DNA of 64,000 nt from Pteria penguin (Eukaryota; Mollusca; Bivalvia; Pterioida; Pteriidae). The position numbers and the translations under genes were made by a program. The DNA lies in NCBI GenBank assembly GCA_035048485.1, contig CM068587.1:22855034-22919033 (forward strand), in the 5' to 3' direction. A model generated the notes under the pieces. That model was not told the origin of the DNA. It did not search any database and saw only the letters and a program-made list of their open reading frames with translations. Of this stretch, positions 6,591 through 59,677 are shown piece after piece; positions within the stretch are counted from its first letter, which is position 1; each line of letters opens with the position of its first letter.

Positions 6591-7482
6591 CAGTTACGGG
6601 ATTTGTTTTACATATCTCACTTTACACAGTTACGGCCTTTGTTTTACATATCTCACTTTACACAGTTACGGGCTTTGTTTTACATATCTCACTTTACACA
6701 GTTACGGGCTTTGTTTTACATATCTCACTTTACACAGTTACGGGCTTTGTTTTACATATCTCACTTTACACAGTTACGGCCTTTGTTTTACATATCTCAC
6801 CTTACACAGTTACGGCCTTTGTTTTACATATCTCACTTTACACAGTTACGGGCTTTGTTTTACATATCTCACTTTACACAGTTACGGGGTTTGCTTTACA
6901 TATCTCACTTTACACAGTTACGGGCTTTGTTTTACATATCTCACTTTACACAGTTACGGGGTTTGTTTAACATATCTCACTTTACACAGTTACGGGGTTT
7001 GTTTAACATATCTCACTTTACACAGTTACGGGCTTTGTTTTACATATCTCATTTTACACAGTTACGGGCTTTGTTTTACATATCTCACCTTACACAGTTA
7101 CGGCCTTTGTTTAACATATCTTACTTTACACAGTTACGGGCTTTGTTTTACATATCTCACATTACGCAGTTACGGGGTTTGTTTAACATATCTCACTTTA
7201 CACAGTTACGGGCTTTGTTTAACATATCTCACTTTACACAGTTACGGGCTTTGTTTTACATATCTCACTTTACGCAGTTACGGGGTTTGTTTAACATATC
7301 TCACTTTACACAGTTACGGGCTTTGTTTTACATATTTCACTTTACACAGTTACGGGCTTTGTTGTACATATCTCACTTTATATAGTTACGGGGTTTGTTT
7401 AACATATCTCACTTTACACAGTTACGGGATTTGTTTTACATATCTCACTTTACACAGTTACATGGTTTGTTTTACATATCGA
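6591..7482. repeat. 36-bp tandem satellite, ~25 copies
   Basis: The unit is CAGTTACGGGCTTTGTTTTACATATCTCACTTTACA-like, with variants GGC/GGG/GGAT and TTTTAC/TTTAAC. The period is a multiple of three, so two frames stay open for 260-317 codons. These are repeat translations (SYGLCFTYLTLH) and not genes. Copies differ by few substitutions and almost no indels, implying recent amplification or homogenisation. Confidence 0.95.
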
Positions 7483-14108: not shown

Positions 14109-14966
14109 ATTATACATAGAAGACACCACCACTAGATAAGATGCATGCTGCTAGTGTGTCGATTAATTATACATAGAAAACACCACCACTAGATAAGATG
14201 CATGCTGCTAGTGTGTCGATTAATCATACATAGAAAACACCACCACTAGATAGGATGCATGCTGCTAGTGTGTCGATTAATCATACATAGAAAACACCAC
14301 CACTAGATAAGATGCATGCTGCTGGTGTGCCGATTAATTATACATAGAAAACACCACCACTAGATAAGATGCATGCTGCTAGTGTGTCGATTAATTATAC
14401 ATAGAAAACACCACCACTAGATAAGATGCATGCTGCTGGTGTGCCGATTAATTATACATAGAAAACACCACCACTAGATAAGATGCATGCTGCTGGTGTG
14501 CCGATTAATTATACATAGAAAACACCACCACTAGATAAGATGCATGCTGCAAGTGTGTCCATTAATTATACATAGAAAACACCACCACTAGATAAAATGC
14601 ATGCTGCTAGTGTGTCGATTAATTATACATAGAAAACACCACCACTAGATAAGATGCATGCTGCTAGTGTGCCGATTAATCATACATAGAAAACACCACC
14701 ACTAGATAGGATGCATGCTGCTAGTGTGTCCATTAATTATACATAGAAAACACCACCACTAGATAAGATGCATGCTGCTAGTGTGTCCATTAATTATACA
14801 TAGAAAACACCACCACTAGATAAGATGCATGCTGCTAGTGTGCCGATTAATCATACATAGAAAACACCACCACTAGATAGGATGCATGCTGCTAGTGTGT
14901 CGATTAATTATATATAGAAAACACCACCACTAGATAAGATGCATGCTGCTGGTGTGCCGATTAATT
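14109..14966. repeat. 57-bp tandem satellite, ~15 copies
   Basis: The unit begins ATTATACATAGAAAACACCA and contains AGATGCATGCTGCTAGTGTG. The period is exactly 57 bp with only substitutions (TGTGTCG, TGTGCCG, TGTGTCC; AATTAT, AATCAT). Confidence 0.95.
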
Positions 14967-15748: not shown

Positions 15749-16902
15749 CGTTAATGACCAGCTCTATATACGACACTAATCGTTAATGACCAGCTCTATA
15801 TACAACACTAATCGTTAATGACCAGCTCTATATACAACACTGAACGTTAATGACCAGCTCTATATACGATACTAATCGTTAATGACCAGCTCTATATACA
15901 ACACTGATCGTTAATGACCAGCTCTATATACGACACTAATCGTTAATGACCAGCTCTATATACGACACTAATCGTTAATGACCAGCTCTATATACGACAC
16001 TAATCGTTAATGACCAGCTCTATATACAACACTGAACGTTAATGACCAGCTCTATATACGACCCTAATCGTTAATGACCAGCTCTATATACGACACTAAT
16101 CGTTAATGACCAGCTCTATATACGACACTAATCGTTAATGACCAGCTCTATATACAACACTAATCGTTAATGACCAGCTCTATATACGACACTAATCGTT
16201 AATGACCAGCTCTATATACGACACTAATCGTTAATGACCAGCTCTATATACGACACTAATCGTTAATGACCAGCTCTATATACAACACTGAACGTTAATG
16301 ACCAGCTCTATATACGACACTGAACGTTAATGACCAGCTCTATATACGACACTAATCGTTAATGACCAGCTCTATATACGACACTAATCGTTAATGACCA
16401 GCTCTATATACGAAACTAATCGTTAATGACCAGCTCTATATACGACACTAATCGTTAATGACCAGCTCTATATACGACACTAATCGTTAATGACCAGCTC
16501 TATATACGACACTAATCGTTAATGACCAGCTCTGTATACGACACTAATCGTTAATGACCAGCTCTATATACAACACTAATCGTTAATGACCAGCTCTATA
16601 TACGACACTGAACGTTAATGACCAGCTCTATATACGACACTAATCCTTAATGACCAGCTCTATATACGACACTAATCGTTAATGACCAGCTCTATATACG
16701 ACACTAATCGTTAATGACCAGCTCTATATACGACCCTAATCGTTAATGACCAGTTCTATATACGACACTAATCGTTAATGACCAGCTCTATATACGACAC
16801 TAATCGTTAATGACCAGCTCTATATACGACACTAATCGTTAATGACCAGCTCTATATACGACACTAATCGTTAATGATCAGCTCTATATACAACACTGAT
16901 CG
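15749..16902. repeat. 32-bp tandem satellite, ~36 copies
   Basis: The unit is CGTTAATGACCAGCTCTATATACGACACTAAT. Two junction variants (CTAATCG and CTGAACG) and a TACAAC/TACGAC variant are interspersed along the array, so it has evolved by local shuffling as well as end growth. Confidence 0.96.
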
Positions 16903-17124
16903 TTTTTATCAATATCGCTAACACGTGTATATATTCAATCTTCTATACATAAATGATTCCATGATACAAATATAACTCACTTTTCATATGGATTCTGGGG
17001 GACAATTTTACATTACGAAATGACCTCATGTTGTCTGATCATAAATATAAGTAGACCGAGAGCAGGCCAAAAGTTATTTTTGTGTTTTAGGGTATTTTAA
17101 ATCCAAAGAAAATGTGGAGAATAA

Positions 17125-21459: not shown

Positions 21460-21896
21460 TGATTTTGTATTTTAATATCTTTTAATATTTCACATCAATC
21501 TACCAGTAGATTCAATATTACAATACAGGACTTCCGAGAAACGCATCAGTGATTCGATTTAAAGTGAAATGTGGGGCATTCTACGTCCGGTATAATATTA
21601 TTGGGTATAACCTCACGGAAATTCTTCCAAGTAATGAAAATAAGAGTTGTATTGCCGTGATTTTCGTTTCGTATGATTAAAATATCATTTCTTTTACAAA
21701 GATTTGTTGTTACACTTATACCCTATTTATATCATGCCGGAAATTCAGTCCTAACACTTTACAGAATAATATGTAAATTTGAAAGCCGACGCGTACCTCA
21801 GAAGTTCCGTATACGGTCCATAGGTTTCCTGGATATACTTGAAATTAATTCTCAGTTATGGCGAAGTACTTCCAGACAAAGTTATATTAACTTTTT

Positions 21897-23784
21897 GAAG
21901 TCAATGATTGGCTTAAACCTATGGAAGTCAATGATTGACTTAAACCTATTGAAGTCAATGATTGGCTTAAACCTATTGAATTCAATGATTGACTTAAACC
22001 TATTGAAGTCAATGATTGGCTTAAACCTATTGAAGTCAATGATTGGCTTAAACCTATTGAAGTCAATGATTGGCTTAAACCTATTGAAGTCAATGATTGG
22101 CTTAAACCTATTAAAGTCAATGATTGGCTTAAACCTATTGAAGTCAATAATTGGCTTAAAACCTATTGAAGTCAATGATTGGCTTAAACCTATTGAAGTC
22201 AACGATTGGCCGAAACCTATTGAAGTCAATGATTGGCTTAAAACCTATTGAAGTCAATGATTGGCTTACACCTATTGAAGTCAATGATTGGCTTAAACTT
22301 ATTGACGTCAATGATTGGCTTAAACTTATTGAAGTCAATGACTGGCTTAAACCTATTGAAGTCAATGATTGGGTTAAACTTATTGAAGTCAATGACTGGC
22401 TTAAACCTATTGAAGTCAATGATTGGCTTAAACCTATTGAAGACAATGATTGGCTGAAACCTATTGAAGTCAATGATTGGCTGAAACATATTGAAGTCAG
22501 TGATTGGCTTAAACCTATTGTAGTCAATAATTGGCTTAAACTTATTGAAGTCAATGATTGGCTTAAACCTATTGAAGACAATGATTGGCTTAAACCTGTT
22601 GAAGTCAATGACTGGCTTAAACCTACTGTAGTCAATGATTGGCTGAAACCTATTGAAGTCAATGATTGGCTTAAACTATTGAAGTCAATGATTTGGTTAA
22701 ACCTATTGAAGTCAACGATTGGCCGAAACCTATTGAAGTCAATGATTGGCTTAAAACCTATTGAAGTCAATGATTGGCTTACACCTATTGAAGTCAATGA
22801 TTGGCTTAAACTTATTGACGTCAATGATTGGGTTAAACTTATTGAAGTCAATGACTGGCTTAAACCTATTGAAGTCAATGATTGGCTTAAACCTATTGAA
22901 GTCAATGATTGGCTTAAACCTATTGAAGACAATGATTGGCTGAAACCTATTGAAGTCAATGATTGGCTTAAACCTATTGTAGTCAATAATTGGCTGAAAC
23001 CTATTGAAGACAATGATTGGCCTAAACCTGTTGAAGTCAATGACTGGCTTAAACCTACTGTAGTCAATGATTGGCTGAAACCTATTGAAGTCAATGATTG
23101 GCTTAAACTATTGAAGTCAATGATTTGGTTAAACCTATTGAAGTCAACGATTGGCCGAAACCTATTGAAGTCAATGATTGGCTTAAAACCTATTGAAGTC
23201 AATGATTGGCTTACACCTATTGAAGTCAATGATTGGCTTAAACTTATTGACGTCAATGATTGGCTTAAACTTATTGAAGTCAATGACTGGCTTAAACCTA
23301 TTGAAGTCAATGATTGGGTTAAACTTATTGAAGACAATGATTGGCTGAAACCTATTGAAGTCAATGATTGGCTTAAACCTATTGTAGTCAATAATTGGCT
23401 TAAACTTATTGAAGTCAATGATTGGCTGAAACCTATTGAAGACAATGATTGGCTTAAACCTGTTGAAGTCAATGACTGGCTTAAACCTACTGTAGTCAAT
23501 GATTGGCTGAAACCTATTGAAGTCAATGATTGACTTAAACTATTGAAGTCAATGATTTGGTTAAACCTATTGAAGTCAACGATTGGCCGAAACCTATTGA
23601 AGTCAATGATTGGCTTAAAACCTATTGAAGTCAATGATTGGCTTACACCTATTGAAGTCAATGATTGGGTTAAACCTATTGAAGTCAATGATTGGCTTAT
23701 ACCCATCGAAGTCAATGATTGGCTTAAGCCTATTGAAGTCAATGATTGGTTTAAACCTATTGAAGTCAATGATTGCCTTTAACC
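21897..23784. repeat. 27-bp satellite, ~70 copies, with higher-order structure
   Basis: The basic unit is GAAGTCAATGATTGGCTTAAACCTATT. A marked variant (AACGATTGGCCGAAACC) recurs at 22201, 22714, 23146 and 23578, i.e. at 513, 432 and 432 bp (19, 16 and 16 units). Blocks within each period repeat in the same order (TTACACC, CTTATTGACG, GTAGTCAATAATTGG, CTACTGTAG), so 432-bp higher-order repeats exist. Each contains one 28-bp (TTAAAACC) and one 26-bp (TTAAACTATT) unit. Long open frames on both strands are by-products. Confidence 0.95.
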
Positions 23785-24975
23785 TATTAAATTCTTACAA
23801 TATATTTGCACTCAAGAATATTTATGTAGATTATGTTTTAACTTTTACCATTTTACATGAACTGTGACAAATTTTGCCGAACACGAGATGACACATCATT
23901 GCTTAATATATTCAAGGGCTGGTTTGATATATGATCTGTTTATAATGACTAGTATGTGTAAAATACATATACAAATATCTCACTTGTGTAACCCTTAAAT
24001 GTAATGTGATTTTCTTTACGTCTTATCATATAAGATTAAATACAAAGCAATTAGACATATTCAAAATACCGTAAATGCAAAATAAAATATTAATAAATCA
24101 TTTAATTTCACATGTAATGCGCATTTTGATTGGTTTAAAAAGCAGTGGTATATCTCATCCACGAAATTTTTATTCTCTGACGACATAATTTCCCGCCTTT
24201 TCTCAACTGTGACGTCAATATTCACACCACAAAGAAAAAAATTAGAGATGATGAGAAAATAGTGCATACATAAGGTACCAATGTCTAAGAATATAAAACA
24301 TGTTTGAAAGGAATTAAATGATAAGGAATGAATCTAATTTGTTATTCTTTGGATGGAGGTATACCATTAAAAAAGGACGGAAACTTATGCATCATGCACT
24401 AAGCACAATGATCCAGTTTTCTGTTCGGGGTTCTTTTTTTTTCTTGTTTTGTGTGTAGTATACCTCTATCCAACGAATTAGATAATTAATTTAAATAAAT
24501 CAAAAATAGTTACATTCATCAATAATATTTTAATTTTGTCTTTAATCTTGTTTGATCGAAAATTTAGTAAAATTGATATCTAGATCTCTAACAAATTTTA
24601 ATTGTTTTATTTGTTACCAATTGGAACATATTTGCATTATTATCTGAACCCAAGAAAATTAGCAAAAGTAAACATTGACAAAATCGTCGCTGGCTCTACG
24701 ACTCCAATGTATTATTTTAATAAGTACATATCAAAGTCATTATCATCGAGTCATCGAGTAAATAATGTGGTTCAAATGAATCTTATACGCACATACACAC
24801 ACTCAAATCTTCCTCTTTTCTTTTTCAATGTAATGATAACTCCATTGCCGAAGTTATTTATAGTTCAGCAATACTGTTTTACGAAATTAAATCTTAATAC
24901 CCTCAGGAACTGGCTGCAATATTAATCACACAGGAGTAAAAGAAATAACAAAAAATTAACCAAAATTTGACCTAC
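23785..24975. other. AT-rich stretch with a possible foldback
   Basis: TTTGGATGGAGGTATACC (about 24350) and GTATACCTCTATCCAACG (about 24459) are inverted relative to each other, ~100 bp apart, possibly a tiny MITE. Nothing coding was recognised. Confidence 0.35.
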
Positions 24976-27314: not shown

Positions 27315-28575
27315 GTAAAGATGATGGATAAATCCAAACCACAAGTCCAAAAATCATGAAACCAGAGGACATACAAAATCAGTGAAAATGAAAAACAAAT
27401 GGAAAATAACAAAATATGTCTACTTGAAGAGCATATGTGAACCCCTGTGATGGAGTGAGATCAGGTGCCCGGGGAGAGTGAGCATCTCCTGCTTGCTAGC
27501 AACACCCGTCACATATAACCAGTAGAAAGAGTCAGATCGTGTAAATTCCATATGTATTTATATATGGAGAAGTCGAAGTAGGTAACCTTCTAGTGTAGAA
27601 GGTGTCAAATCTGTGTAAAATAATCGGAATCGGTCTCAGTCCAGAATATCATTTAAAAGTCTGGATAACGAGATATCATATGGAGTAATAAGAGTCTCGT
27701 AACGACCGTAGAACTTCCCCAGTGACGTTGCTAGTCTAGCACATATATAACCCTGGTTGAGCAGCTTAACTGAAGGTCGCCTAGCCCTCAGAACAAAGTC
27801 ATTGTAATTTGAACATGCTCTGGAATAACGTATTAACTGAGATATGAATACGCCGTATGCGGGCGATGATGGAATGTTGCTACTTATGAAAGGAAAGTTT
27901 GTGATAGCGAAATTGAAATCGTCACGCTTGTCATAGAGTGAGGTGTTCAATTGACCATTAATGTCGAAAGACAACATAATATCTAAATACGAAGTAGAAT
28001 TACTACTTTCTGTGGTTTCTTTGACCTCCAGTTCACTTGGATAGATGATGCTAAGGTAATCCGCGAATGAAGGATTATTAATTGAAAGCAAGTCATCTAT
28101 ATATCTGTAAGTAAAATTGAAGCCAAGAGCCAATTGTTTTTTTTTCCTTGCGAAAGCAAAGACTGAATGAATTCAGCTTCGTATTAGTAAAGGAATATGT
28201 CAGCCAGAAGCGGAGCACAGTTAGTGCTAATTGGAATGCCGACAATTTGTAGAAAAACCTTACCTCCAAACACTACAAAAATGTTATCGATAAGAAAGTT
28301 CAACATCTGGATGACAGCTGTTTCAGTGTATTTATTTTTGGAATCAGAATTTTCCCTAACAAAGTAAGTTTTATCGTGGCCTATTACTATATATTTGAAT
28401 TTGCGGCTTCCGTTTTTACTTATAAATGCATTTTGAATAATTTCCGCTAATCTGTCTTTTAATTTCTGATGAGGGATCGTTGTGTAAAGAGTCGAAAAGT
28501 CAAAAGACTTGATGGAGTGAATTTTAGTAAAACTTTTTGATGTTAGATGTTCTAACAACTCTTTTGAATTTTTAA
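27315..28575 (-). mobile_element. Penelope-like element family A, copy 2
   Basis: The longest family-A copy: RT from before motif A to the end, then the 3' UTR down to about 27315 (mirror of 534-856). It is 5'-truncated at about 28575. Confidence 0.88.
27636..28560 (-). pseudogene. PLE-A reverse transcriptase (motifs A to thumb), broken
   Basis: Order on the minus strand: SFDFSTLYTTIPH (motif A, catalytic Asp), an insertion-rich stretch, GIPISTNCAPLLADIFLY (motif B; other copies have GIPMGTN), then YRYIDDLLSIN (motif C) and the thumb region ending SRLLNDILD and TGA at 27636. Two breaks separate the parts: a TAA after DIFLY at about 28184 where copy 3 has a Ser codon, and a frameshift in the A run at about 28138-28146. 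A dead copy, and the only one here showing motif A of this family. Confidence 0.85.
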
Positions 28576-29660
28576 GGATGTATTACGAAATGTATGACGA
28601 AACCTCCAGATCTGGAGACACATAGAGTAAGTATGACATAAGATGCCGCAGCTGCAGAACTGACGTGGAGAAAGTTAGCAAAAATGATGTGTGAATTATC
28701 TATTATACTGCCGTCATGAGGCGGAGAAAAATGGTAGGGCCGTTGATTTGGGGGGGGGGGGTCTCTCCCTCCCAAATCCTCCGTATTACACTCCGAAATC
28801 GATTTCTTTCATAATTCAGTATATTCTAGAAAGAAGGTGCTTTGATGTCACTCAGTAATATTTCAGTTACATGTATAAAGAACACGCCCATGAATTTCTT
28901 GTCAGTAATTTTTTTTTTAAATACAGTTCTGAAAAATGCCACCAGATACGAATTTACGTGAAAATTCCTAAAAATTCGTATTTCTCAAAAATTTAATCAA
29001 CAGAAATCATAAAAATTATTATAAAATAAATAATAAATATTAAATATTGCAAAATCTAAAACAAATTAACAGAAATATAGCAATTAGACGACAGAGATAA
29101 AATGCTTCAAAATGCTTTTATATTGTTCCCTCTAGATGGCGTGGCTGATTTCTGGAAAGGATGCGCGGTGACCCCTTAATATTTTTTTTATCAAACACAC
29201 ACACGACATATTTTTTATTTCAGTGCCGTATTTAAAAAACCATAAGAACATTATTTTCCCATGATACCTTACACTGTGTGTTAAGTATTTTGACAGGGGT
29301 TTTTCCATTCGATTCATTTCCATTTATAGTGAATATTTTATCATTAACGCCATAGTGATTTTTAAAAGCTAACATATTTGTTTGCGATACCTATAGGCGA
29401 AAATGTAGAATTTATTGTTTATTGCTTTATTTATGGAAACAACATTTTGCTGGTCACATGAAGAGCTCATTTGTGAGGAATTAACTTTCACTTGGGTTTT
29501 TTATTTATTATTTTTTTTTTTTCGATATAACTTTATAAATGATTCACTAAAAACAAAAGATACTTGAGCTATATCTGTCTGTAGATAGCTTTTAATTATT
29601 ATTGCGTTCATTTGATAAATAATTTTTACAAGTATTTAAGATTATCACACTTAGGCTTGA
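28576..29660. other. AT-rich stretch
   Basis: A poly-G tract lies near 28750. No gene was recognised. Confidence 0.4.
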
Positions 29661-29839: not shown

Positions 29840-30760
29840 CTATTACATTCGAGATTCTTTTTTCAAGTGTTCGACAGAAAGGTCCGAGAAAGTGCGATTG
29901 CTGGAAATTACCCATCACTTAGCCTCCATTAATCCATTTAATGTTTGTTTGCTTTTGCCGTGATAGCAGTTAGTTCTGCAACGGTGACTTTTCATTTCAC
30001 TTTTGATTTTAATTTTATCTTCCTAGTGTAAATTGTTTCTAATTATGCCTATTACGTTCTTGTGGTAAGTAAGTTTTATACGGGTATTTTGCATATAGAT
30101 CTAATGCAGGAAAATTATTATCGGTAGATATTTTCACAAGGTTATCATTAGTAATTTTCCTTTAAAAGAAAAGTAAAAGAATAGTAGCAAAAATAAGAAA
30201 TTAAAGATCTCAAGAGGTTTAAATGTAATTTACTGAACCAACTATTTGGTATATCCGATAATATGATTAAGGCCCCATAATGATAGCCCTTGCTGTTCAG
30301 GAGTAGCTGTAACAAACAAAAATTCAAGATTTCCACCATGGCACCAAAGGCCTATTTTCTAAGAGAAGACAGAGGGCATCTGACCAGGTTGTCTGGAACA
30401 AATCATCAAGGACGTGCACATAAAACATGATAATAGTATTTAAACAAGAAAAGAGTACAAAAATATTCAATTGCACTGCAGTTACAATACCGACTTAGGA
30501 CGGTCAATTAAAGTAACAAACGTCACTCCATTGATGTGATTAACCAGTTTACGGGCGCCCACCCTCCATAGCCTATCATCCACTGAAGCCTCACACCAAT
30601 AGGACCTACCGTTCAGGAATAGCGATAACAAGAAATTCAATATTAAGAAGATACCTACAGATCAAAACGGGCAACCGTATTCCGTGTCTCAATATACGAA
30701 ATATTTATATTGATGAAATTGACGAAAGCAGTCCGCCTACTGTTTGTATTATGGTATTGT
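29840..30760 (+). repeat. Unit X copy a, left part
   Basis: It aligns with 41310-42220 (landmarks CTAATGCAGGAAAATT, GATATTTTCACA, GGTTTAAATGTAAT, TCATCCACTGAAGCC, TTATATTGATGAAA) and with parts of 38.1-39.2 kb and 44.0-45.0 kb. It stops where PLE-B begins and resumes at about 35515. No coding content. A fragment of the ~236-bp PLE-B terminal unit is present inverted at 30459-30550. Confidence 0.75.
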
Positions 30761-30805
30761 TTGTATTATGTTTTACTACTGTTTGTATTATGGTATTATA
30801 TCCAT

Positions 30806-31287
30806 CGATGCTTGGATGGCAATGCCCCTCGCCTCCCATCATATGGTATCTATATATCTCAATTAGTTCGATTTGTCAGAGGCTGCACCGATGTTTTGGA
30901 CATTCATAAAAGAAATTTACAAATTACTACTAAACTTTTAACTCAGTGTTACAGATATCACAAGCTAAGAAAAACATTCGGCAAATTCTTCAGATCTTAT
31001 TCAGAACTTCTGTCTAAATTTGGAAATATTTCTTTTAAACATTATGTATCCAATGGAATTTCCCATCCTAATTTTTACGTGATCTCGTATATAAACTAAG
31101 GAAAGTAAAAGGCTCCGATAACGTTATTTTATCATGTAATAAAATAGTCAAACGTCTTCTAAATAGACAATATGACATTGAGATCATCAAAAAGACTATA
31201 GGTCTTGTATTTGGCCCCTCTACAGCCTTATGCAGACTTTTACTTGAACGTTGCACGCTGACTAACAGGGCGGTGGGGACTATATGA
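30806..31287 (+). pseudogene. PLE-B reverse transcriptase, C-terminal part (upstream copy)
   Basis: Matches 34286-34768 at high identity (YGIYISQLVRFVRGCTDV, KLRKTFGKF, RQYDIEIIKKTIGLVFGPS). One G is missing relative to the downstream copy (TTTTTACGTGAT against TTTTTACGGTGAT, near 31080), shifting the frame. Confidence 0.85.
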
Positions 31288-31794
31288 CGGGCCTTGTCCA
31301 AACCTCTTTCAGAAGAGACATGGTCCTGAACCTCGTCCCCTCTGACTGTTAGTCGAGACTCCTACAGATCTAGGGTCTTAGCTCGCTTTCAGACTGGCAG
31401 AGCACGGTTTATCATGTTGATGTGGCATATATTTTTAGATCATTATGTGTTTTACAATACCTTACGTGTTTATATTTTTATGACCTCTCAATATGCGATA
31501 CCTGTTGACCCTCGTACTTTACATGGAGAATTATTTATAAATTTTTAAATGTACGTCTTTTTTCTTTCATATCTACACTTATTCTCAGATGCAGTGTGGA
31601 GCCTGTAAAAAGGTTCCCCGTGTCTGGGTGTTTCAAGTGTTATTATTCACCCAATAGTTACTGACTTGGTTGTGTGGGAGTTTTCCCCAGGGTTTGTACA
31701 TCCTTATCCCCCCTTTTCATTAAAATGGCTTCAAATATAATAAAAATAAAATACAAATCTCCTAAATTATAATCACACCACTTAGATTGCCTCT

Positions 31795-34768
31795 GTGTCC
31801 ACTCCTCATATACCTGGTATTTCTTGTAGAAAATTATTCGGCACCACTAAAGTTCTTATTTCTCCACTTAAAAGTAGTTTCCCTATTAAACGTTCGATCT
31901 CATTTTCAAAAACATTCACACCTATAAATTCTTACAGAGCTGTCAATTCTATACGCAGAGGGTATTCTAAGATTAATAAGTGCAACGCCAAGAAATGTAT
32001 TACTTGCCATCATTTAAACTGCAAGTCCAATATTGAATCTTCGGTTAATGGAAATATATTTAACACCAAATTAGACAAAGACATAGATTGAAATACTGCC
32101 AATGTTATATATGTCATCACTTGAGAAGCTAGAGGATGTGGGGCTCAATATGTCAGGGAAACTTCTCAAACTTTGAAACAACGTTTTCGAAATCATTCCT
32201 ATAAAATTCGTAATAATTCACGACGTAAATACCAGAATTTTCTTTATAACCACTTATATAAATACCAACATAATATTAACAATGTGAAAATAACTCCAAT
32301 AGAAAATATCTCTAAATTACCAGGTGATACGAAATCAGATGTTAAAAAACGACTTTTGGAAACCGAGCTCTACTGGATTAAACAACTACAAACCCCATAC
32401 CCTCTTGGTCTCAACGACCAAATATATCGACAAGGTAATATTTCTTCTCGTCAGAATAAGATCAATATTTTTACATTAAGACATAAAACTATTAGAAAAC
32501 GTAGGTCACAAGGTCGTCGTCGTAATCGTAACATCAGAAAACGTAATCGTTTAAATAGGTCATTAAACGATCTTTTATTTATCGCAAAAAATAATGGCCG
32601 TCATGAACTTTTGCATGCACTATCCTCTATTCCGGTAAATAAATTGAAACCTATCCTGGACGAAGCTGATCTTCGAAGTTTACGCAATTCTGATTGATAT
32701 AAACTCAATTTGATTATTTTATTTTCATATAATAAACTCTTTCCTCGTATTCCGTCTCTTCTACCCAAGCAGCAATTTCTCAAAATTAAATTTATTAATA
32801 AAGGCTTCGATCTACTTAACATTTCTAATATTTTCCGTGATCATAGAGTCACATCTAAAATCCCCCAATATTTTGAGAATTTAGAACCTCCACTTATTTG
32901 TTACCAGTACAGGTCATGTTATTACTGGTGACCTAAACTGTATTTCGGACAAGAAATTGAGCACCCTTTTTGGAAAAGGACCTAAATATAGGTTACCGTC
33001 CAGGATAGATTTCAATAAATGCCGTGACGTTATAGAAGATGCTTTAACTACATATTGTAAACGTTGGTGTAAAAAAGAACAGGTAAAGGTTCATGCTCTT
33101 AATGATTGGAAATTCGAGATTTTAAAAATTGTCGATATCCGTGTAAAGAACTTTACGGAAAATCCGCATTTATTTCAACAGCCTAATACATTGACGACAA
33201 ATTCTATTAAAAAGAAGATAGCTGACTTACATGCTAAATATCTCTTTGTTCCCGCTGATAAAGCAGGTAATAACATAATAGTTGTTTGAAAACTATATTA
33301 TATTGAAGTACTTAAAAACGAATTAAACTCCACTCATACATATTTTGAAAGCCCTACCTCAAAAGAGAGCACCTTGCACGATCACCTCATGACCATGTCC
33401 GACTTCAAAATTAAAACTGATAAATCTGATCTACCAACCATGTATTGGCTCCCAAAACTACATAAAAGTCCATATAAATCACGTTTCATATCTAATTCTA
33501 GCCACTGCTCTACTACGGTACTATCGAAACATATTACGTCTGCTCTAACTGCTATAAAAGATCATATTATCAAATATTGTGATGTCGCATTTCATAATAG
33601 TAACATCAATTACTTTTGGTCGATTAAAAATTCTCATGAAGTAATAGACAAACTTCTTTCGCTAAATTTCAAAGCGACTCAAATTTCTACATTTGATTTT
33701 TCTACACTTTATACATCTCTGCCTCATGATTTGATTAAAAGCAAGTTGCTGTCTCTTATACAATGGTGTTTTCACAGAGAATCTAAAACGTACATATGTA
33801 CTTCCAATAACTCTGGATTCTTTTCCAACAAACAATATACTTCATATAAATACTGGACTTGCAAGGAATTATGTAAAGCACTAGATTTTCTCATGAATAA
33901 TATTTTTGTGCAATTTGATGGCAAGATATATCAACAAATAGTTGGAATTCCTATGGGTACTAACTGCGCGCCTCTGATAGCAGATTTATTTCTTTATTGT
34001 TATGAGAGGGATTTTATGGTTTCTATTCAAAATTCAAAACGTTTTGACCTCATTGACAAATTTAATAACACTTGCAGATATCTGGATGACATTTTGGTTA
34101 TTGACAACCCTGAATTCGAACAATTTATTTCAGAAATATGTCCACCAGAGCTCACATTGAATAAAGCTAATACTTGAGATAAATCTACACCTTTCTTAGA
34201 TTTAAACATCAAAATTATCAACAACCTAATATATACTAATATTTATGATAAACGTGAGGATTTTGGATTTCCTATTGTAAATTTCCCTTACTTGGATGGC
34301 GATGTCCCTCGACTCCCATCATATGGTATCTATATATCTCAATTAGTTCGATTTGTCAGAGGCTGCACCGATGTTTTGGACTTTCATAAACGAAATTTAC
34401 AAATCACTACTAAACTTTTAACTCAGGGTTACAGATATCACAAGCTAAGAAAAACATTCGGCAAATTCTTAGGATCTTATTCAGAACTTCTGTCTAAATT
34501 TGGAAATATTTCTTTTCAACAGTATGTATCCAATAGAATTTCCCATCCTAATTTTTACGGTGATCTCGTATATAAACTAAGGAAAGTAAAAGGCTCCGAT
34601 AACGTTATTTTATCATGTAATAAAATAGTCAAACGTCTCCTAAATAGACAATATGATATTGAGATCATCAAAAAGACTATAGGTCTTGTATTCGGCCCCT
34701 CTACAGCCTTATGCAGACTTTTACTTGAACGTTGCACGCTGACTAACAGGGCGGTGGGGACTATATGA
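31795..34768 (+). pseudogene. Naiad-like PLE polyprotein: N-terminal GIY-YIG endonuclease + reverse transcriptase, with five in-frame TGA codons
   Basis: Retroelement replication protein. In order: a basic N-terminus; a Cys-rich lead (CNAKKCITCHHLNC); a GIY-YIG nuclease (NVIYVIT, QYVRETSQTLKQRF, then ETELYWIKQLQTPYPLGLND); a basic linker (RRRNRNIRKRNRLNRSLNDL); GHVITGDLN; RT with VPADKAGNNIIVV, YWLPKLHKSPYKSRFISNS, TFDFSTLYTSLPH (motif A), GIPMGTNCAPLIADLFLY (B), CRYLDDILVID (C) and a thumb. Endonuclease before RT is the permuted order known from Naiad/Chlamys PLEs. In-frame TGAs lie at 32089, 32122, 32695, 33287 and 34175, with no in-frame TAA or TAG; those at 32089, 32122 and 33287 sit where relatives carry Cys. 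Between about 32905 and 32945 the frame shifts and the CxC linker motif expected before GHV.TGDL is absent, so this copy is damaged in any case. Confidence 0.82.
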
Positions 34769-35041
34769 CGGGCCTTGTCCAAACCTCTTTCAGAGGAGAC
34801 ATGGTCCTGAACCTCGTCCCCTCTGACTGTTAGTCAGGACTCCTACAGATCTAGGGTCTTAGCTCCCTTTCAGACTGGCAGAGCACGGTTTATCATGTTG
34901 ATGTCGCATATATTTTTATACCATTATGTGTTTTACAATACCTTACGTGTTTATATTTTTATGACCTCTCAATATGCGATACCTGTTGACCCTTGTTCTT
35001 TACATGGAGGATTATTTATAAATTTTTAAATGTACGTCTTT

Positions 35042-35513
35042 TGATTGTTCTGCTGTTATGGTGAGTGGGAAGGTGGGCCCGTAAACCGGTTAACCACACC
35101 ATTTGTTTGGCTTCTGTCAAATTAAATGACCGTCCTAAGTCAGTATCGTAATTGCACTACAATCAAATATTTTTGTAATGTGTTAAATGTTCTATTATAT
35201 TATTTATATCCATGTATTGTATAGCTCCATGGTGACTTCTGCCACATAACTGAGCCAGTAACTCCTCTTTTTTCTTTGATTGTTCTTCTGTTACGGTGAG
35301 TGGGAATGTGGGCCCGTAAACCGGTTAACCACACCATTTGTTTGTTTTTTGTCAAATTAAATGACCGTCCTAAGTCGGTATCGTAATTGCACTACAATCA
35401 AATATTTTTGTAATGTGTTATATGTACTAGTACATTATTTATATTCATGTATTGTATAGCTCCATGGTGACTTCTGCCATATAACTGAGCCAGTAACTCC
35501 TCTTCTTTCTTGC
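35042..35513 (+). repeat. Two direct ~236-bp units at the PLE-B 3' side
   Basis: Each unit runs from GATTGTTCTGCTGTTATGGT (second unit: TTCTTCTGTTACGG) to CTGAGCCAGTAACTCCTC and contains GGCCCGTAAACCGGTTAACC. Pieces occur inverted at 30459-30550 and 41852-41902. They may be pseudo-LTR material of PLE-B or a separate short repeat; no RT-coding content. Confidence 0.7.
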
Positions 35514-35514
35514 A

Positions 35515-36250
35515 AAAGTAAAAATGTATTACTTACTAAACAATTAACGAATACACATCACTATCACTAGGGATAATTACGCTTGTAGCACAAACTTTGT
35601 CACAATAAAGTGAAACTAAACATACGGTTTCTGAAAATGGTATAACTGGTATTAATTCTACTAGAAACCCCCGAGTAAACTTTTCAAGACTACAGGATGA
35701 TATACAATTCATAATGGTAACACTTATCAAACACCTATTATGAAATATTTAAATCGGGAAAAATAAGAGAGAAGTACCGAGAATTTTCAATTACTTACTC
35801 CATGACAAACGGACAGCTCTTCTGAATAAATATTAACGGAGTGGAGCAAACTTAGACCTTTATCAGTCTGATTTTATGTTTGGGATGCAGGGGCGGAAAA
35901 GTATTTCCGTTTAACTTCTTTTATCATTATCAATGGAAAAGTTTTGAAATGTAAAAGTGGAATTTTATGGCCATGTACTTGAAAAGACAAAAGGGACTAA
36001 AGGATTCCGAGATTTTATGGTAACATTTCACCAATGACACAGGAAAGCCCACCATCAAAAGTCATTCTTAATTACCTTTTTAGCATCCTTGGAATAAGCA
36101 GTTGTAGCTCGGCTATGCACTTGGCTTGTGACCGAGATGTCCGGACTGAGACTCATCGGTGTCTTGCCGTTTAACCCATGTAGTTTGAATGTCAAAATAA
36201 AGTCAGATAATTTTGCAGGACATGTTAATTAGAGGCTAATTACCCTCAAT
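35515..36250 (+). repeat. Unit X copy a, right part
   Basis: Continues unit X after the PLE-B cluster: aligns with 42245-42890 (CTACAGGATGATATA, GGCGGAAAAGTATTT against AGCGGAAAAGCATTT, TTTTATGGTAACATT, AATTACCTTTTTAGCAT). It ends in a degenerate SINE head (36100-36180, GCTTGTGACCGAGATGTCC). Confidence 0.75.
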
Positions 36251-39233: not shown

Positions 39234-40194
39234 GTAAAGATGATGGATAAATCCAAACCACAAATCCAAAAATCATGAAACCATAGGACATACAAAATCA
39301 GTGAAAATGAAAAACAAATGGAAAATAACAAAATATGTCTACTTGAAGAGCATATGTGAACCCCTGTGATGGAGTGAGATCAGGTGCCCGGGGAGAGTGA
39401 GCATCTCCTGCTTGCTAGCAACACCCGTCACATATACCCCGTAGAAAGTGTCAAATCGTGTGAATTCCATATGTATCTATATATGGAGAAGTCGAAGTAG
39501 GTAACCTTCTAGTATAGAAGGTGTCAAATCTGTGTAAAGTGATCGGAATCGGTCTCAGTCCAGAATATCATTTAAAAGTCTGGATAACGAGATATCATAT
39601 GGAGTAATAAGAGTCTCGTAACGACCGTAGAACTTCCTCAGTGACGATGCTAGTCTAGCACATATATAACCCTGGTTGAGCAGCTTAACTGAAAGTCGCC
39701 TAGCCCTCAGAACAAAGTCATTGTAATTTGAACATGCTCTGGAATAACGTATTAACTGAGATATGAATACGCCGTATGCGGGCGATGATGGAATGTTGCT
39801 ACATATGAAAGGAAAGTTTGTGATAGCGAAATTGAAATCGTCACGTTTGTCATAGAGTGAGGTGTTCAATTGACCATTAATGTCGAAAGACAACATAATA
39901 TCTAAATACGAAGTAGAATTACTAGTTTCTGTGGTTTCTTTGACCTCAAGTTCACTTGGATAGATGATGCTAAGGTAATCCGCGAATGAAGGATTATTAA
40001 TTGAAAGCAAGTCATCTATATATCTGTAAGTAAAATTGAAGCCAAGAGCCAATTGTTTTTTTCCTTGCGAAAGCAAAGACTGAATGAACTCAGCTTCGTA
40101 TGAATAAAGGAATATGTCAGCCAGAAGCGGAGCACAGTTAGTGCCCATTGGAATGCCGACAATTTGTTGAAAAATCTTACCTCCAAACACTAAA
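39234..40194 (-). mobile_element. Penelope-like element family A, copy 3
   Basis: RT C-terminal half plus 3' UTR, inserted into a copy of repeat Y: flanks 39125-39233 and 40195-40415 are contiguous in the uninterrupted Y copy at 17125-17445. Only the last ~210 codons of the RT were inserted (5' truncation). Confidence 0.88.
39555..40193 (-). pseudogene. PLE-A reverse transcriptase, motif B to C-terminus, uninterrupted
   Basis: Intact from FGGKIFQQIVGIPMGTN (motif B) through YRYIDDLLSIN (motif C, two Asp) to SRLLNDILD and TGA. It lacks fingers, motif A and any endonuclease, so it cannot act. The cleanest family-A reading frame here; it shows what copies 1 and 2 lost. No TGA occurs inside this part. 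Confidence 0.88.
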
Positions 40195-45914: not shown

Positions 45915-48097
45915 CGATCTTTCGGCAAGAAAAATCCAGAATTGCGATCTTTTAAACCATCGTGGTTTAAGCACTATACATGGCTACATTATGACGAGGT
46001 AATTTGATCACACATTCATAATTTTCTATTTGAAAATGTTATGTTTTATGGTAAAATGAAATGTTATTACAATGAATTTGAGCCGTCAGTGAGCACAACT
46101 GAATATGCTAGACATCGTATATGTACAGCAAAGTTTGTAACAATTGGATACAATTATCATTTTGTAATAATGTTTTATTATTATTTTCAGACAAAAGATC
46201 TGGCCTTTTGCTTCACTTGTATGACTGCTGCAAAGGAGGGAAAGCTTGCAAATTCCAGAGTCGATGGTTGTTTTATAAAAACAGGATTCAGCAACTGGAA
46301 AGATGCAACATTGAAGTTCAGAAAACACCAGGACTCGGACTGCCATAAAGAAGCTGTAGAAAGAATAGTGAAATTGCCTAGTGAAACAAAAGATATCGGT
46401 GAAGTGCTTTCTGTCGCCCATTCCGAGGAGAAAAAGAACAACAGACAGCAGTTGTTGACCATTCTGCGTAGCATACGGTTTCTTGCTAGACAAGGCTTAC
46501 CCATCCGTGGTCATGACGACGAACAAAGCAATTGCAAGTGATGGCATTACAGATCCTGCGTGACGTAGCTACTCGCATCAGAGAGGATGGGTATTTCTCC
46601 ATCATGGTAGACGAGACGACAGACCAGTCTAACCGTGAACAAGTTGTGATTGTGATTCGTCATGTTGATAGTGACATGAATGTTTTCGAGGAGTTCATTG
46701 GATTATGTATGGTGCCGTCAATCGACGCTGCTACGATGACCGACGTGATTCTCGATGCGTTAGTGAGGATGAACATCTCCTTGAGTAAGTGCCGTGGACA
46801 GTGCTATGATGGAGCCAGCAATATGTCTGGAGCTAAGAAAGGTGTGGCAACTAACATCACCAAGAAAGAGAGGAGAGCTGTATACACACACTGCTATGGA
46901 CATGCACTTAACTTAGCTGTTGGTGATACCGTGAAAAAGTCAAAGATTATGCGCGATTCATTGGATACAGTGTTCGAGATGTCCAAACTCGTCAAGTATT
47001 CACCTAGGAGAGACACAATGCTGGACCAGCTGAAGCATGAGATGGCACCAGATACACCAGGATTCCGAGTGTTATGCCCAACTCGATGGACAGTCAGAGC
47101 TGCTAGCTTAAATAGTGTTCTAGATAACTACTCAGTTCTCCAGTCGTTGTTGGAATCCTGTTATGAATGCACAAAGGATCCTGAAACCCGTTCTCGGATC
47201 ATCGGTGTAAAATCTCAGATGCAGAATTATGACTTCCTCTTCGGTGTAACCCTTGGATACGAAATTCTACGTCACACAGACAATTTAAGCCGAGCACTTC
47301 AGAAAAAGGATCTCTCAGCTGCGGAAGGACAACGCATCACAGAATTTTCTATGGCATCGTTACGTGAAATGCGCACAGAAGAGGCTTTCAATACATTCTG
47401 GGAATCGGTTAACAACAAACTCGAGGATCTAGAAGTTGGTGAACCCCGACTGCCCCGACGTAGAAAGATGCCCAAGAGATTCGAAATAGGCAACGCCCCT
47501 CCAGAATTTGCATCTTCAGAGAGCGATCTCGATAGACAACATTATTACGAAGCATTGGATCTTGTAATGAACTGTGTGAGTGATCGCTTTGACCAGCCCG
47601 GTTTCCGTGTGTACCGCCACCTACAGGACGTTCTCCTGAAATTTGTACATGGGGACGAAACATACAAGGAAGATTTGGATTTCATCTTGGACTTTTACAA
47701 CGAGGATTTGGACAAGACATCACTTCCAACGCAACTAGAGACCTTCTCATCGTTCATAAGAAACAACATGAGTGATAAGTCAACTGTGTCGTTATCGGAT
47801 TTGTTGAAGTCACTTCGCGAGATGACTCCAACCTCCAGATGTTTCTTTTCCGAGATCGGGACTCTTTTGAGACTTATTCTTGTGATGCCAGCCACCAATG
47901 CTACCAGTGAAAGGACATTTTCAGCACTACGCCGCGTCAAGACATACTTACGCTCGACCATGACACAAGAAAGGCTGAACCACCCGATGATGTTGCACAT
48001 CCACAGAGATGCTACAGACAGTCTAAATCTTACTGATATCGCCAACGACTTCATCTCAGCTCGGGACTCACGAAGATCTATTTTCGGACAGTTGTAA
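45915..48097 (+). pseudogene. hAT transposase, ZMYM1/TTF-zinc-finger type, with internal deletion
   Basis: A DDE-family cut-and-paste transposase. Exon 45915-45998 (FKPSWFKHYTWLHYDE; donor GAG|GTAATT) joins in phase 0 to 46191 (acceptor TTATTTTCAG), completing a TTF-type zinc finger (LAFCFTCM, HQDSDCHKEA). It reads to GLPIRGHDDEQSN and stops; from about 46535 another frame gives MALQILRDVATRIREDG, FSIMVDETTD (first catalytic Asp), CYDGASNMSG (second Asp), CPTRWT and the dimerisation region NATSERTFSALRRVKTYLR, ending FGQL at 48097. Relatives have some 40-50 residues between GHDDEQSN and the MALQ(I/V)L stretch; here they are gone and the frame changes, so the copy is inactive. An AATAAA lies at 48236. 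Any exon upstream of 45915 was not found. Confidence 0.85.
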
Positions 48098-53717: not shown

Positions 53718-54832
53718 CTATAATTTAAGCCCTTTCTTCTTTGTCTTTTGCTTTTCGGCTTTCCTTTTTTTCTCATTTAATATATCTAACGAAGTTAAAA
53801 GCCTATGAGATTTTACTATGTTAGCCTTGGACTTCTGAGAATCATTCCTCTTTCCAACATTTGGCATAAAAATGTTATTTATTGTTTCATCGACAGACGG
53901 AAGGTCAACAAGTGAATGTTCCTCTAACGATGGCAGACTAGCACAACCTTGCTCATCTGCAGTCGCTATCTGGATTTCCCCTCTCATAACTAAATCTAAT
54001 AGTAAATCTGAAGTCAATTCCTTGTTTGATGAAAAGTTAACTTCAATTGGACTGACCGAAAGTGTATGAGAGGCTAAAGGTTGTACGTCAGTCGAGGTGA
54101 GTTGACTGCTGGTCGGAGGCATAGTGGACATTGCAGGCGATGTTGTCATGTGGGATTCCGCATTGAAGGAAGATACAGCACTTTGCAGAAATGGAGGCTT
54201 AAATCTTACAGGGGCTCTTGTGATTTGTTTAGAGGATATGTGATGTATTTGATCGCTAGTAGGAAAAGATTGATAATGAGACAGACTATCAGAGGAAGAC
54301 ATCGTTATGGGGAATGGAATGTTCGTATGATCAGATGATGTCATTGTGGCCACGGAGTTAGAAGACGTTGGAATTAAAGAAGTTGCAGGAGTGGATAGAT
54401 TACTGGGCGTAGGTAATGGCATTTCATGTTGTGCAAGGGTGTTAATTTCACTAGGAAGAAAGGCTTCTTCAGGAATTGCATTCTTATTTAATGGGTAGAT
54501 GCCACAAGCTATAAATCCGCTGATAATATTTGATACCGTCATTCCTTTGTCCCATGCATACTTAAACAAACCCGTGAATGTTGCTTTGCTTATTACATTA
54601 AGTGGGTTCTCTGACAGGTAGGTAGTGCAAGCTTCATTGTAAAAGTGGTTGAGAGGACCAAATACTGCACGATCTAACGGTTGCAGGCAATGTGTCGTAT
54701 GTGGAGGTAGCGACAGAAGTACAATGTTTTCCGCAATTGCGAGCTCAATAATCGACAAGGACTCGTGTGATGAATGGCCGTCAAGAATTAACAACTGAGG
54801 TCTTGCTGGACCACAATTTTTCAGAAAAACCT
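53718..54832 (-). pseudogene. pogo/Tigger-like transposase, C-terminal half (DDE_1)
   Basis: Starts inside the DDE catalytic domain: FLKNCGPARPQLLILDGHSS (second catalytic Asp in LILDGHSSH), then LPPHTTHCLQPLDRAVFGPL and KATFTGLFKYAWDKG, FKxCGIYPLN-like FIACGIYPLN. A long Ser/Thr/Pro-rich tail and a basic C-terminus (KKRKAEKQKTKKKG) follow; stop TAG at 53718. The N-terminal helix-turn-helix/CENP-B DNA-binding domains and first Asp are missing: the frame is cut at about 54833, where a tRNA-like repeat abuts. Related to the pogo/jerky/CENP-B group; this copy cannot be active alone. Confidence 0.85.
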
Positions 54833-54835
54833 GTG

Positions 54836-54905
54836 CAGTCGAATGGGATCGAACTCCGGACCTTTCGATAACAAGCCAACACCGACTGAGCTACGCAGGC
54901 TTCAC
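54836..54905 (-). mobile_element. tRNA-like repeat abutting the transposase
   Basis: On the minus strand: GAAGCCTGCGTAGCTCAGTC, GGTGTTGGCTTGTTATCGAA, GGTCCGGAGTTCGATCCCAT; A box TAGCTCAGTCGG, B box GAGTTCGATCC. It probably marks the insertion that removed the N-terminal half of the transposase. Confidence 0.5.
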
Positions 54906-56644: not shown

Positions 56645-58413
56645 TTACAAACCAAGTTGCTGAGAGACTGATAACCTATTGGATTTCTGATCTACTCTGT
56701 ACATGTCTTTGCTAGAATCACACTTCCAACGACCATGACGCTTGATGCATCTTTCTTTAGCATCCCCAGCCACTGCCGCAGTGGCGCCCCCTGATCTAAG
56801 GGAATGTAAACCAAAATTAGCGTCCGGATTAACAGATTTAAGACGTGTTAAAATGGTCTCTCTAGCTGCTGTGTAACTGATCTTTTTTACCTTATAAATC
56901 AGTTTTGCAACTAGTGATGAAACGATTTTCGCCGATGATCGAATATCGATCGCTGAAAGTGCGCCGATTTCGATTTTCGATTCTATTTTTAAAAATCGAA
57001 AAATCGCCGGAAAAAAAACGAAGAAGAAGAAGTTTTATCATTCAAATTGACTCGTAAAATGTAGTGTTACTATCTACCGAAATGACCCAATTGACGGGAA
57101 TGCCCCATCTTATTACTGAAATGCCCATGAAATGGAACTTAAATGTTAATAATTATTGTTTTTTACATATAAATTTGAATGAATCAGGATAAAAGCGTGT
57201 GAACATATAGTATTTTTGTTTGATTCTCTTATCTTTGTATAAATTTTATTGTTAAAAAATCGTTTATCTTGCCACCTACAGAATTTCCTCTGATTCTTAC
57301 TCAAAGGACTGAAAGTGAAAAAAAAAATTACAAACTTATTCATCAATTTCATGACATTTGTAATTTTCAAAGAATCATCAGAATGAATGTATGATGCTTT
57401 TTTAAATAGTTTGTCTCCTCTTAATTTTTCCATAGAATAAAGGAATTGCTAGTTATTCTTGTTTGGTCTTTAGTAAAGACACTTGTTATTGAGATATATT
57501 TTATTGTTTAAAATTTCTAGTTTATTATATTTTTCAAATTAAAAAAATCTACATACATGATTACATTGTCAAATGATGAAAATATCCCCTTGCAAAATGG
57601 TTTTCTTATTCGTCCGATTATAATCGATCATCGATCGGCTATGATTTCCGATTATTGTCCGATCATCGATTATGAAAATTGTCCGATTCTGCATCAATAT
57701 TTGCAACACCCTTAGAACGAAAAATAGGCTTAAACAAATAATCTGATGATTGCAAATCTATGCCTGCTAATGTGATATATTTTGACAACATATTAGCTGG
57801 ACAAGCACAATCATGTTTGACCTTTAGCAACTAATACTTCATCACCTTGCCTGTAATGGTCAGTTTTGCTCCTATGAATGTTTAAAGACAAATAGCTATC
57901 AAAAATATGCACATCAAAACATTTTAAATCAAAACGCAAAAACCCTGCAAAACATAACAAAATCATGCTTAAGTCCCTAATAACGATCAAGTCAGACGAA
58001 TCACTATGCGTTTCACATAACCTGATGAGAGTTTCTGTTGAAACTGGATCCTTCCTCACGAACTTGAGAGTAGCTATACGCTTAGCAGCTTCTTGTAACG
58101 ATTTCACATACGAATTGTCGGTTGGATCCGCCATTCCGTTAATCTCATGTGCCCACTTAATCGCATATACAGCGTGATTTATCACGTGAGAAGAAGAACC
58201 ACGGTCGAGTAAATACGTCATATATAATGCAACGTGAATAGGCTGCGCTGGGATGTGTTGAAATCCTTGACCAGAAATGAAATCTGACCATCTCTTGAAA
58301 TGACCATAATATGTTGACACAGTGTCATTACTTTTACTCTGCACAATAAAATTAGACATTTTCCCTCCGAGATCGGATAAATAACTGTTGTCTGAAATCC
58401 CACTCTGCTCCAT
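56645..58413 (-). pseudogene. Tyrosine recombinase of the YR retrotransposon, interrupted
   Basis: Integrates the circular cDNA in place of a DDE integrase. It starts MEQSGISDNSYLSD (58413) with an N-terminal SAM-like core-binding half (HFKRWSDFISGQG, ALYMTYLLDRG), then the catalytic half: LCFAGFLRFDL (first Arg). After a frameshift near 57820 (VAKG to KHDCACPANMLSKYI) it runs into a 788-bp hAT-type insertion. It resumes at about 56903 with ISYTAARETI, LHSLRSGGATAAVAG (H-x-x-R), KRHGRWK, and SSKDMYRVD holding the probable nucleophilic Tyr; it ends QQLGL, TAA at 56645. All catalytic positions can still be found, but the gene is split. Confidence 0.85.
56912..57699. mobile_element. Non-autonomous hAT-type element, 788 bp, with 8-bp TSD
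   Basis: Flanked by exact TTTGCAAC (56904-56911 and 57700-57707). Ends TAGTGATGAAACGATTTTC and, inverted, TATTGATGCAGAATCGGAC form imperfect TIRs. Both ends are full of ATCGAT/GATCGG motifs. It carries only a 95-codon open frame of unknown kind on the minus strand (57146-57433), so it depended on a transposase elsewhere. Confidence 0.85.
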
Positions 58414-58461
58414 GGCGTCATTATACCATTCTGAATAGCTAAGCCTGTCAAATTTTTAAAA

Positions 58462-59677
58462 TTACAATGAAAATTCAAACCTTAAAGCTATTAGATAAAA
58501 AGATAAAGGATTTCTACTAAATATGCTCTTATTACATCTGCCCTTAATTGTTGCATTACTTCTAGGCAAAATCTGTAAATTTGAAATGTGCTTTCTATAA
58601 ACTCTAAGTAGTGGCCAAAACGGAGCAGACTCCCATTTAGGCAAAACAATTGTAGCCTTTACTTCGTCCTTGACACACTTGTAAAAAACATCTGCCCCCC
58701 CATGCTCGTTGGGGTACAATAAGATTATTATAACCTGACCAAGATGTTTTGAAAGCATCTACGCTGTCTGTACCGGGACACCAAACTCTTGAACTGAATT
58801 TTATACATCTATTGTTATAATGAGATGCAAAACTATCATAATCATGAGGCCCGTACCTAGCTTCTAAAATCTTAAACAGAAGCACTCAAACCCCAGTCGT
58901 CTCTATCTGATAACCTACTCAGGGAATCTGCCTCCTGATTTTCAACTCTAGGTATCCATATTGACGATAAGCTTATATTTTCTCTTTTGCAAAGTTTAAA
59001 GATATTCACTGCTATGGAATGCAGTTCCCGAGTTTTGCTACCAACGTTAAGAATATAGCACACATTTTTACTGTCACTAAAGACTTTAACCTTTGAACCT
59101 ACAAGTTTGGTAGACTTCGTTTGAATAATTCTATTGATCGATTCAAGTTCTCTCCAAGTCGAACTTTTGACACTTTCCCTTTGGCTCCATAAACCATGAA
59201 CTTGTTCCTTGCCCTGCTGTCGGGCGTCCCCTACATCCTGATTATATAGGGAATTAGTCTGAATTAAATGACCACCAAACTCTGTGTTTGATGCATCACT
59301 GAAAAGCTGAAAATCTGAATGATCTGGCAAGATAAAAGACTTTAATCCTGCACCGATCATATTAAGCACCTCTATGTTATGAACCAGTAATTCATTTCCT
59401 TGATTGCCTCTGAGGAAAATGTAATTTTGCTATTCCAGCTAGCCCTCCTTTCTATACAAAAGTATAAAAATCTGGTATTCCTGCGAACCTCGTCTCCTAT
59501 AACCGCCTTCATACTGATAATTTGTCCGACCAAACTGGCTACGAGCTTAGCGCTAAAAAGTACCTGCCCCCTACCAAACATCCCTAATATTTCTGTCAAA
59601 AACATAAGGAATCTGTTTACCCTGTCGTATGACACTCTAATTATGCCATCTTTTAAGTCCACTGGAAGCCTAACCAC
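58462..59677 (-). pseudogene. RT C-terminus, RNase H and downstream region of the YR retrotransposon (frameshifted)
   Basis: Continues the RT of the upstream ORF after a frameshift at about 59660: VSYDRVNRFLMFLTEILGMF, LVASLVGQIISMK. After a second shift at about 59383 comes RNase H: FQLFSDASNTEFGGHL (first Asp), SSTWRELESI (Glu), VFSDSKNVCYIL (Asp), WIPRVENQEADSLSR (final Asp). A third (about 58880) and a fourth (about 58712) lead to RYGPHDYDSFASHYN and KATIVLPKWESAPFWPLL, the usual end of DIRS-type polyproteins. Each break is a single-base change, several at short runs, so decay or assembly error cannot be told apart. Confidence 0.82.

Follow-up and report, generated by a model that had tools for sequence, protein, structure and literature searches.

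The genome of Pteria penguin carries an abundant family of Penelope-like retrotransposons, apparently of the Naiad type, whose single open reading frame (ORF) is very probably decoded with five selenocysteines (Sec) under one SECIS element at the ORF end. Selenocysteine is a rare 21st amino acid, and proteins that contain several of them are rare. An initial annotation of one copy, located in a window of 64,000 nucleotides (contig CM068587.1, the whole stretch of DNA analysed here), had proposed a selenocysteine-using Naiad family. This proposal is now supported by TGA codons fixed across genomic copies, a SECIS element, relatives with cysteine at the same sites, and the presence of tRNA-Sec and SepSecS in the host. 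The enzyme that this family encodes thus seems to contain five selenocysteines, given that its message carries a SECIS at its very end. In the proposed mechanism, the host SECIS-binding protein and eEFSec would act through the SECIS to insert Sec at the five UGAs, and the sixth UGA would terminate translation. The finished protein would then nick DNA and reverse-transcribe its own RNA as other Penelope-like elements do, both being general activities of these elements.

The window copy itself is, judging by its sequence, a dead element (Table 1). Compared with L008, a copy with a whole frame, it is missing 119 bases at ~32911, a deletion that puts the ORF out of frame and takes away the CxC linker, and it has further small frame-breaking deletions near the ORF start. 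The initial annotation had called this copy frameshifted and devoid of the CxC linker. That description is right for the window copy, but the family keeps the linker, with the first Cys codon present in 29/29 covering copies and the second in 28/29. L008 is atypical here, as its second linker Cys codon is TTC vs. TGT in the other 28 of 29 copies. The related statement that the window copy is no functional master holds, given that deletions break its frame. Intact copies exist elsewhere in the genome. The five in-frame TGAs that had been listed (32089, 32122, 32695, 33287, and 34175) were all confirmed, and, with TGA read as a residue, neither TAA nor TAG occurs in the surviving frames 31786-32913 and 32909-34765. 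The end coordinate previously given for the element, 34768, coincides with the third base of a sixth in-frame TGA, which is located within the SECIS. Beyond the element, the 235-base units at 35040-35511 have an inverted counterpart (74-78%) at 30430-30561, ~4.5 kb upstream.

Table 1. Features of the window copy and its flanks (window positions; residues in L008 numbering)
Feature	Position	Strand	Evidence
Partial copy of the element's 3' part, directly upstream, pseudo-LTR-like	30811..31371	+	Repeats D1 and D2, 96-97%
Second SECIS match, in the upstream partial copy	31276-31339	+	33.2 bits, below gathering
Degenerate single ORF, from the intact-copy ATG to the terminal TGA	31725..34768	+	ATG region matches L008 and three other aligned copies
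GIY-YIG-type endonuclease region (residues 80-225)	31960..32397	+	Pfam GIY-YIG in relatives, conserved columns, model pLDDT 90
In-frame TGA, proposed Sec, residue 123	32089..32091	+	TGA in 9/9 copies
In-frame TGA, proposed Sec, residue 134, where the Cys-Cys-His-His set of the endonuclease has its first Cys	32122..32124	+	TGA in 9/9 copies
In-frame TGA, proposed Sec, residue 325	32695..32697	+	TGA in 19/19 copies
Deletion junction of the window copy	32911..32913	+	Two L008 alignment pieces overlap by 2 bases; 119 L008 bases unmatched
Reverse transcriptase part of the ORF	32909..34765	+	tblastn with the L008 protein; telomerase reverse transcriptases are the 14 best PDB matches of the full-length model
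In-frame TGA, proposed Sec, residue 562	33287..33289	+	TGA in 30/30 copies
In-frame TGA, proposed Sec, residue 858	34175..34177	+	TGA in 29/30 copies, TCA in one
SECIS element, AUGA at 34765-34768	34757..34820	+	RF00031, 36.6 bits, gathering 35
Sixth in-frame TGA, within the SECIS, proposed true stop	34766..34768	+	TGA in 30/30 copies
Two head-to-tail 235-base units 3' of the element	35040..35511	+	Repeat comparison

On another contig, L008:195-3356 retains a whole frame of 1054 codons with exactly five internal TGAs, at residues 123, 134, 325, 562, and 858, followed by a sixth, terminal TGA. A random sequence of 1054 codons with the same base composition as L008 would contain ~74 stops, and the probability that five of five stops are all TGA is 0.0006. 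The initial annotation, taking the three stops as equally likely, had put it below 1%. Across 30 loci, a set that includes L008 and the window copy (which stands for L001), the five sites were TGA in 96 of 97 covered cells, and the exception was a single TCA at residue 858 (the 34175 site). The count for each site excludes loci that do not extend to it, namely 21, 21, 11, 0, and 0 of the 30 for residues 123, 134, 325, 562, and 858, respectively. Other stops in these loci were limited to 8 in 24,635 codon cells, each found in a single copy (5 TAA, 2 TAG, and 1 TGA).

A protein search of the genome (838 Mb, 49 contigs) scored 45 candidates in 46 matches. Excluding one copy that was split in two left 44 long copies, which are the best-scoring ones and in which stops were counted by number, not by place. 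Five in-frame TGAs were found in 36 of the 44, six in 6, and four in 2, and 20 of the 44 had five TGAs without any other stop. Stops in these copies totaled 224 TGA, 21 TAA, and 5 TAG. In the copies examined, the comparison that the initial annotation had suggested shows TGA fixed at the five sites and TAA and TAG only as scattered decay. The pattern it had named as contradicting its reading, in which the sites would hold Cys or Trp codons or a TAA/TAG mix and a SECIS would be lacking, was not seen. Variants common to at least two copies fell on codon positions 1/2/3 of the ORF in the proportions 9/5/26, compared with 102/101/112 for singletons. We regard the third-position excess of shared variants as pointing to coding constraint in the ORF. 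Beyond the last UGA, shared variants were distributed 2/2/3, and the sign of constraint is weak there.

The search for a SECIS that the initial annotation had proposed was positive. The Rfam SECIS_1 match at the ORF end scored 36.6 bits against a gathering threshold of 35, with an E-value of 1e-4 for the searched region of 5.6 kb and 0.0011 for all 64 kb, which contain no other SECIS above gathering. The surrounding segment (34740-34835) folds at -46 kcal/mol (z -5.1), and the hairpin has an AUGA and UGA core, an unpaired AAA, and then an extra small helix, a form which we take to be a type II SECIS. A match at or above gathering was recovered in 27 of the 30 loci; L016 (32.2) and L028 (31.2) fell below it, and L020 gave no SECIS match at E ≤0.1. 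The 64 SECIS bases are identical in 22 of 30 copies, and the changes in the other 8 lie outside AUGA, AAA, and UGA. The five UGAs precede the SECIS by 579 to 2784 nt, which falls within the UGA-SECIS spacing of 207-5207 nt given for mammals (PMC3316567).

A decayed relative beside L028 (L028 4504-4859, minus strand) provides a view of the SECIS at greater distance. Its protein is 62-64% identical in two C-terminal stretches, and it has its own SECIS of 46 bits, above the score of the main family (z -3.8 when folded with its flanks). Between the two, 59 of 63 SECIS bases are identical, compared with 220/289 just before and 114/141 just after. The differences consist of four substitutions and one gap, located in loops or at a mismatch turned pair.

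To place the five sites among homologous proteins, we aligned 199 relatives (sets of 30, 120, and 49) to L008 and split them at 55% identity to it into 115 close and 84 distant relatives. Most proteins in the sets of 120 and 49 are fragments, which leaves a separate and small n for every site, and because the 120 proteins, listed of 4515, reach only ~516 residues, the frequency of TGA at residue 562 cannot be drawn from that set. Distant relatives had Cys at residue 123 in 18/20 cases, at residue 134 in 20/20, and at residue 562 in 38/42 (otherwise W 2, Leu 1, and Asp 1), which bears out the claim that related elements have Cys at 32089, 32122, and 33287. The sites at 32695 (residue 325) and 34175 (residue 858) are variable and not Cys in most distant relatives. 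With the TGAs taken as Sec codons, the alignment thus shows Sec/Cys exchange with relatives at three sites (residues 123, 134, and 562).

Among close relatives, by contrast with the distant ones, W was the usual residue at four sites: 7/7 at residue 123; 8 at residue 134, with Cys 2; 19 at residue 325, with an exact protein end in 16, Leu 1, and gap 1; and 9 at residue 562, with an exact end in 1. Residue 858 was Ser in 36/45 and W in 1/45, and the first linker Cys (residue 424) was Cys in 3 and W in 3. Our reading is that W at these sites stands for TGA rendered with a TGA-as-Trp code, because other records end exactly at residue 325 and because P0001 and P0002 have W at the terminal TGA. Of the W cells in the close set, 52/378 lay at other L008 positions, 26 of these at residue 896, and are presumably true Trp. 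The W at the first CxC linker Cys in P0003, P0175, and P0188 is probably TGA as well and could mark a further Sec site.

In the tree, L008 fell in a supported clade with P0001, P0002, P0031, P0032, and P0036. The label "UGA562" required three changes on this tree. Since P0031, P0032, and P0036 start downstream of residue 562 and are unlabelled, the tree does not bear on whether there was a single origin. No relatives were found in an alignment search of viral contigs or in searches of genome contigs with the L008 protein and P0148. The record P0148 is labelled as a Candidatus Thiodiazotropha MAG. Candidatus Thiodiazotropha is a clam symbiont, and for P0148 alone the label hints at a clam host.

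A control was available within this genome, in the form of a second family of the same kind of element. It gave 45 matches, of which 25 had no stop, and the other 20 copies held 30 stops in all (19 TAA, 7 TAG, and 4 TGA), with no fixed TGA. Since stops in this family are mostly TAA, sequence decay in the genome does not favour TGA. One copy, L031, is 37% identical to L008 and has Cys at residues 123, 134, and 562 and at both linker positions, along with Glu at 325 and Thr at 858; a SECIS search of that copy gave no match. These Cys-type elements share domain order and conserved residues with the Sec family but differ from it in their Cys codons at the three exchange sites and in lacking a fixed TGA and a SECIS match. 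Three fragments of the Cys-type family, which has at least 45 matches in the genome, also lie in the window at 27645-28582 (-), 39564-40193 (-), and 3-503 (+), and are ~58-64% identical to P0004-P0006.

The domain order was assigned mainly through relatives. Pfam placed an N-terminal GIY-YIG domain in 5 of the 7 relatives scanned (four above the cut-off and P0005 just below it) and RVT_1 behind it in 2 of the 7, both below the cut-off. The protein of L008 itself had no Pfam match to GIY-YIG or RVT_1, and Pfam and PDB sequence searches with it returned chance-level matches only. The earlier statement that GIY-YIG precedes the reverse transcriptase (RT) is thus upheld by homology. The full-length model had a mean pLDDT of 77, and its 14 best PDB fold matches were all telomerase reverse transcriptases (best E 1.2e-12); their TM-scores, normalised to query length, were low (0.22-0.30). 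A fold search with the endonuclease model (pLDDT 90) gave no match at E ≤0.001; UvrC GIY-YIG chains ranked 4th, 8th, and 12th, each at E above 1. Conserved columns group residue 134 with Cys 139, His 158, and His 177, which we take to be the Cys-Cys-His-His zinc set of such endonucleases. This agrees with the earlier placement of 32122 in the zinc-binding part of the endonuclease.

The element also has a pseudo-LTR feature, as its 3' part is repeated directly upstream of the window copy with 96-97% identity. No hammerhead family was among the Rfam matches (E ≤5) at 30400-36000. This anatomy is presumably that of the Naiad type, Penelope-like elements with an N-terminal GIY-YIG endonuclease. 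Our verdict, based on sequence comparison, is a very probable multi-selenocysteine Penelope-like element of the Naiad type.

The host appears equipped for Sec insertion. Two strong tRNA-Sec loci (77-78 bits) were found at C13:36871078-36871163 (-) and C3:12199727-12199812 (-), along with eleven weaker matches, three at the cut-off and eight below it. Because tRNA-Sec matches occurred in all 14 control genomes (above the cut-off in 5), just the two strong loci were used. SepSecS was represented by seven exon-like matches on one contig, two of them with a TAA inside.

The five TGAs could instead be disabling mutations, spread in a burst from a single defective master mobilised in trans, with the full protein not made. 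Copies are about 95-99% identical to one another, so five common TGAs could be a matter of descent alone. However, four of the sites are occupied by W or coincide with a protein end in relatives at ≥55% identity, and distant relatives have Cys at three of them. The improbability that five of five stops are TGA, the preference of shared variants for third codon positions, and a SECIS at the ORF end whose sequence, in a diverged relative, has changed less than the flanking DNA likewise argue against this scenario, which we consider very unlikely. It is similarly improbable that the UGAs are read through as another amino acid, either by a general code change or by a near-cognate Cys or Trp tRNA, with the hairpin being incidental. 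Cys at three sites in distant relatives would also fit UGA read as Cys. Still, under a general code change, it would be hard to account for the control family, where TGA is rare and scattered like other decay stops (4/30), and an incidental hairpin would make the sole above-gathering SECIS in 64 kb a coincidence at just this place.

Decoding with five selenocysteines also has a variant, in which the sixth UGA would be recoded too and translation would run through the SECIS to the TAA at 35027-35029. The frame beyond the sixth UGA does hold one more TGA (30/30) and then this TAA (30/30). However, the last UGA of the ORF lies inside the AUGA core of the SECIS and should therefore be a true stop. 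It would terminate translation because it is within the SECIS and so closer than the minimum UGA-SECIS spacing of 51-111 nt described for Dio1 (PMC3316567). The one-base length difference in the SECIS of the diverged relative also shifts the downstream frame. Of the 17 close relatives that reach the terminal UGA, 8 end exactly there and 9 run on, but these are gene predictions and cannot settle the matter. Overall, we consider recoding of the sixth UGA unlikely.

Returning to five selenocysteines and a terminating sixth UGA, a broader reading can be offered tentatively, at somewhat less than even probability. Host selenium may gate the movement of the family, as one stop-straddling SECIS would drive five recodings before any RT is made. 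Sec may have been gained stepwise, also at non-Cys positions, with four sites common to relatives, the linker CxC in some, and residue 858 almost only in this subfamily. The terminal UGA would have been spared because it belongs to the SECIS core itself.

Craig, Yushenova, Rodriguez and Arkhipova reportedly described Naiads in 2021, with multi-Sec members in clams and spiders. Published Naiads likewise have an N-terminal GIY-YIG endonuclease, a CxC linker, a telomerase-like RT, and several in-frame UGAs. Because multi-Sec Naiads have reportedly been published, we count the family here as a known kind. It is a well-supported new example of a kind of element that was reportedly described before, not a new kind. 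Judged by titles, no other paper on a Naiad selenoprotein was found in a literature search. The 2021 paper (Mol Biol Evol 38:5005) is cited in PMC11167929.

Two better-studied systems share single traits with the element. SELENOP, which has ten UGAs in human and mouse (PMC5133445), resembles it in having several UGAs in one message. However, SELENOP is a host protein with two SECIS in its 3' UTR, whereas one SECIS was found in the element, starting inside the ORF. The fowlpox virus GPX4 also has its SECIS in coding sequence, where it is reported to support selenoprotein expression in mammalian cells, but it is an unrelated protein, described with one in-frame UGA (PMC6769590). The element would have Sec both in its RT and at a probable zinc-ligand position, and the role of selenium there becomes a testable question. 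The co-occurrence of Sec and Cys families in one genome, together with intermediate relatives and a stop-containing SECIS, amounts to a natural experiment on how Sec can be gained without loss of function, and it bears equally on how one UGA may escape recoding by its position.

The window contains other repeats and transposon remains. Remains of a hAT-type transposase with DUF4371 and a hAT dimerisation region lie at 46008-48097 (+), and those of a DDE_1 transposase at 53718-54890 (-). A retrotransposon at 57811-61320 (-) has zinc knuckle, RT, and RNase H-like matches, and its downstream ORF looks tyrosine recombinase-like by eye (DIRS-like), with no Pfam match. Two tRNA matches, at 61458-61530 and 62645-62714 (+), are barely above gathering and are possibly tRNA-derived repeats. 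Long minisatellite arrays occupy 6591-7480, 14109-14966, 15749-16904, and 21895-23788, with units of 36, 57, 32, and 27 bases, respectively.
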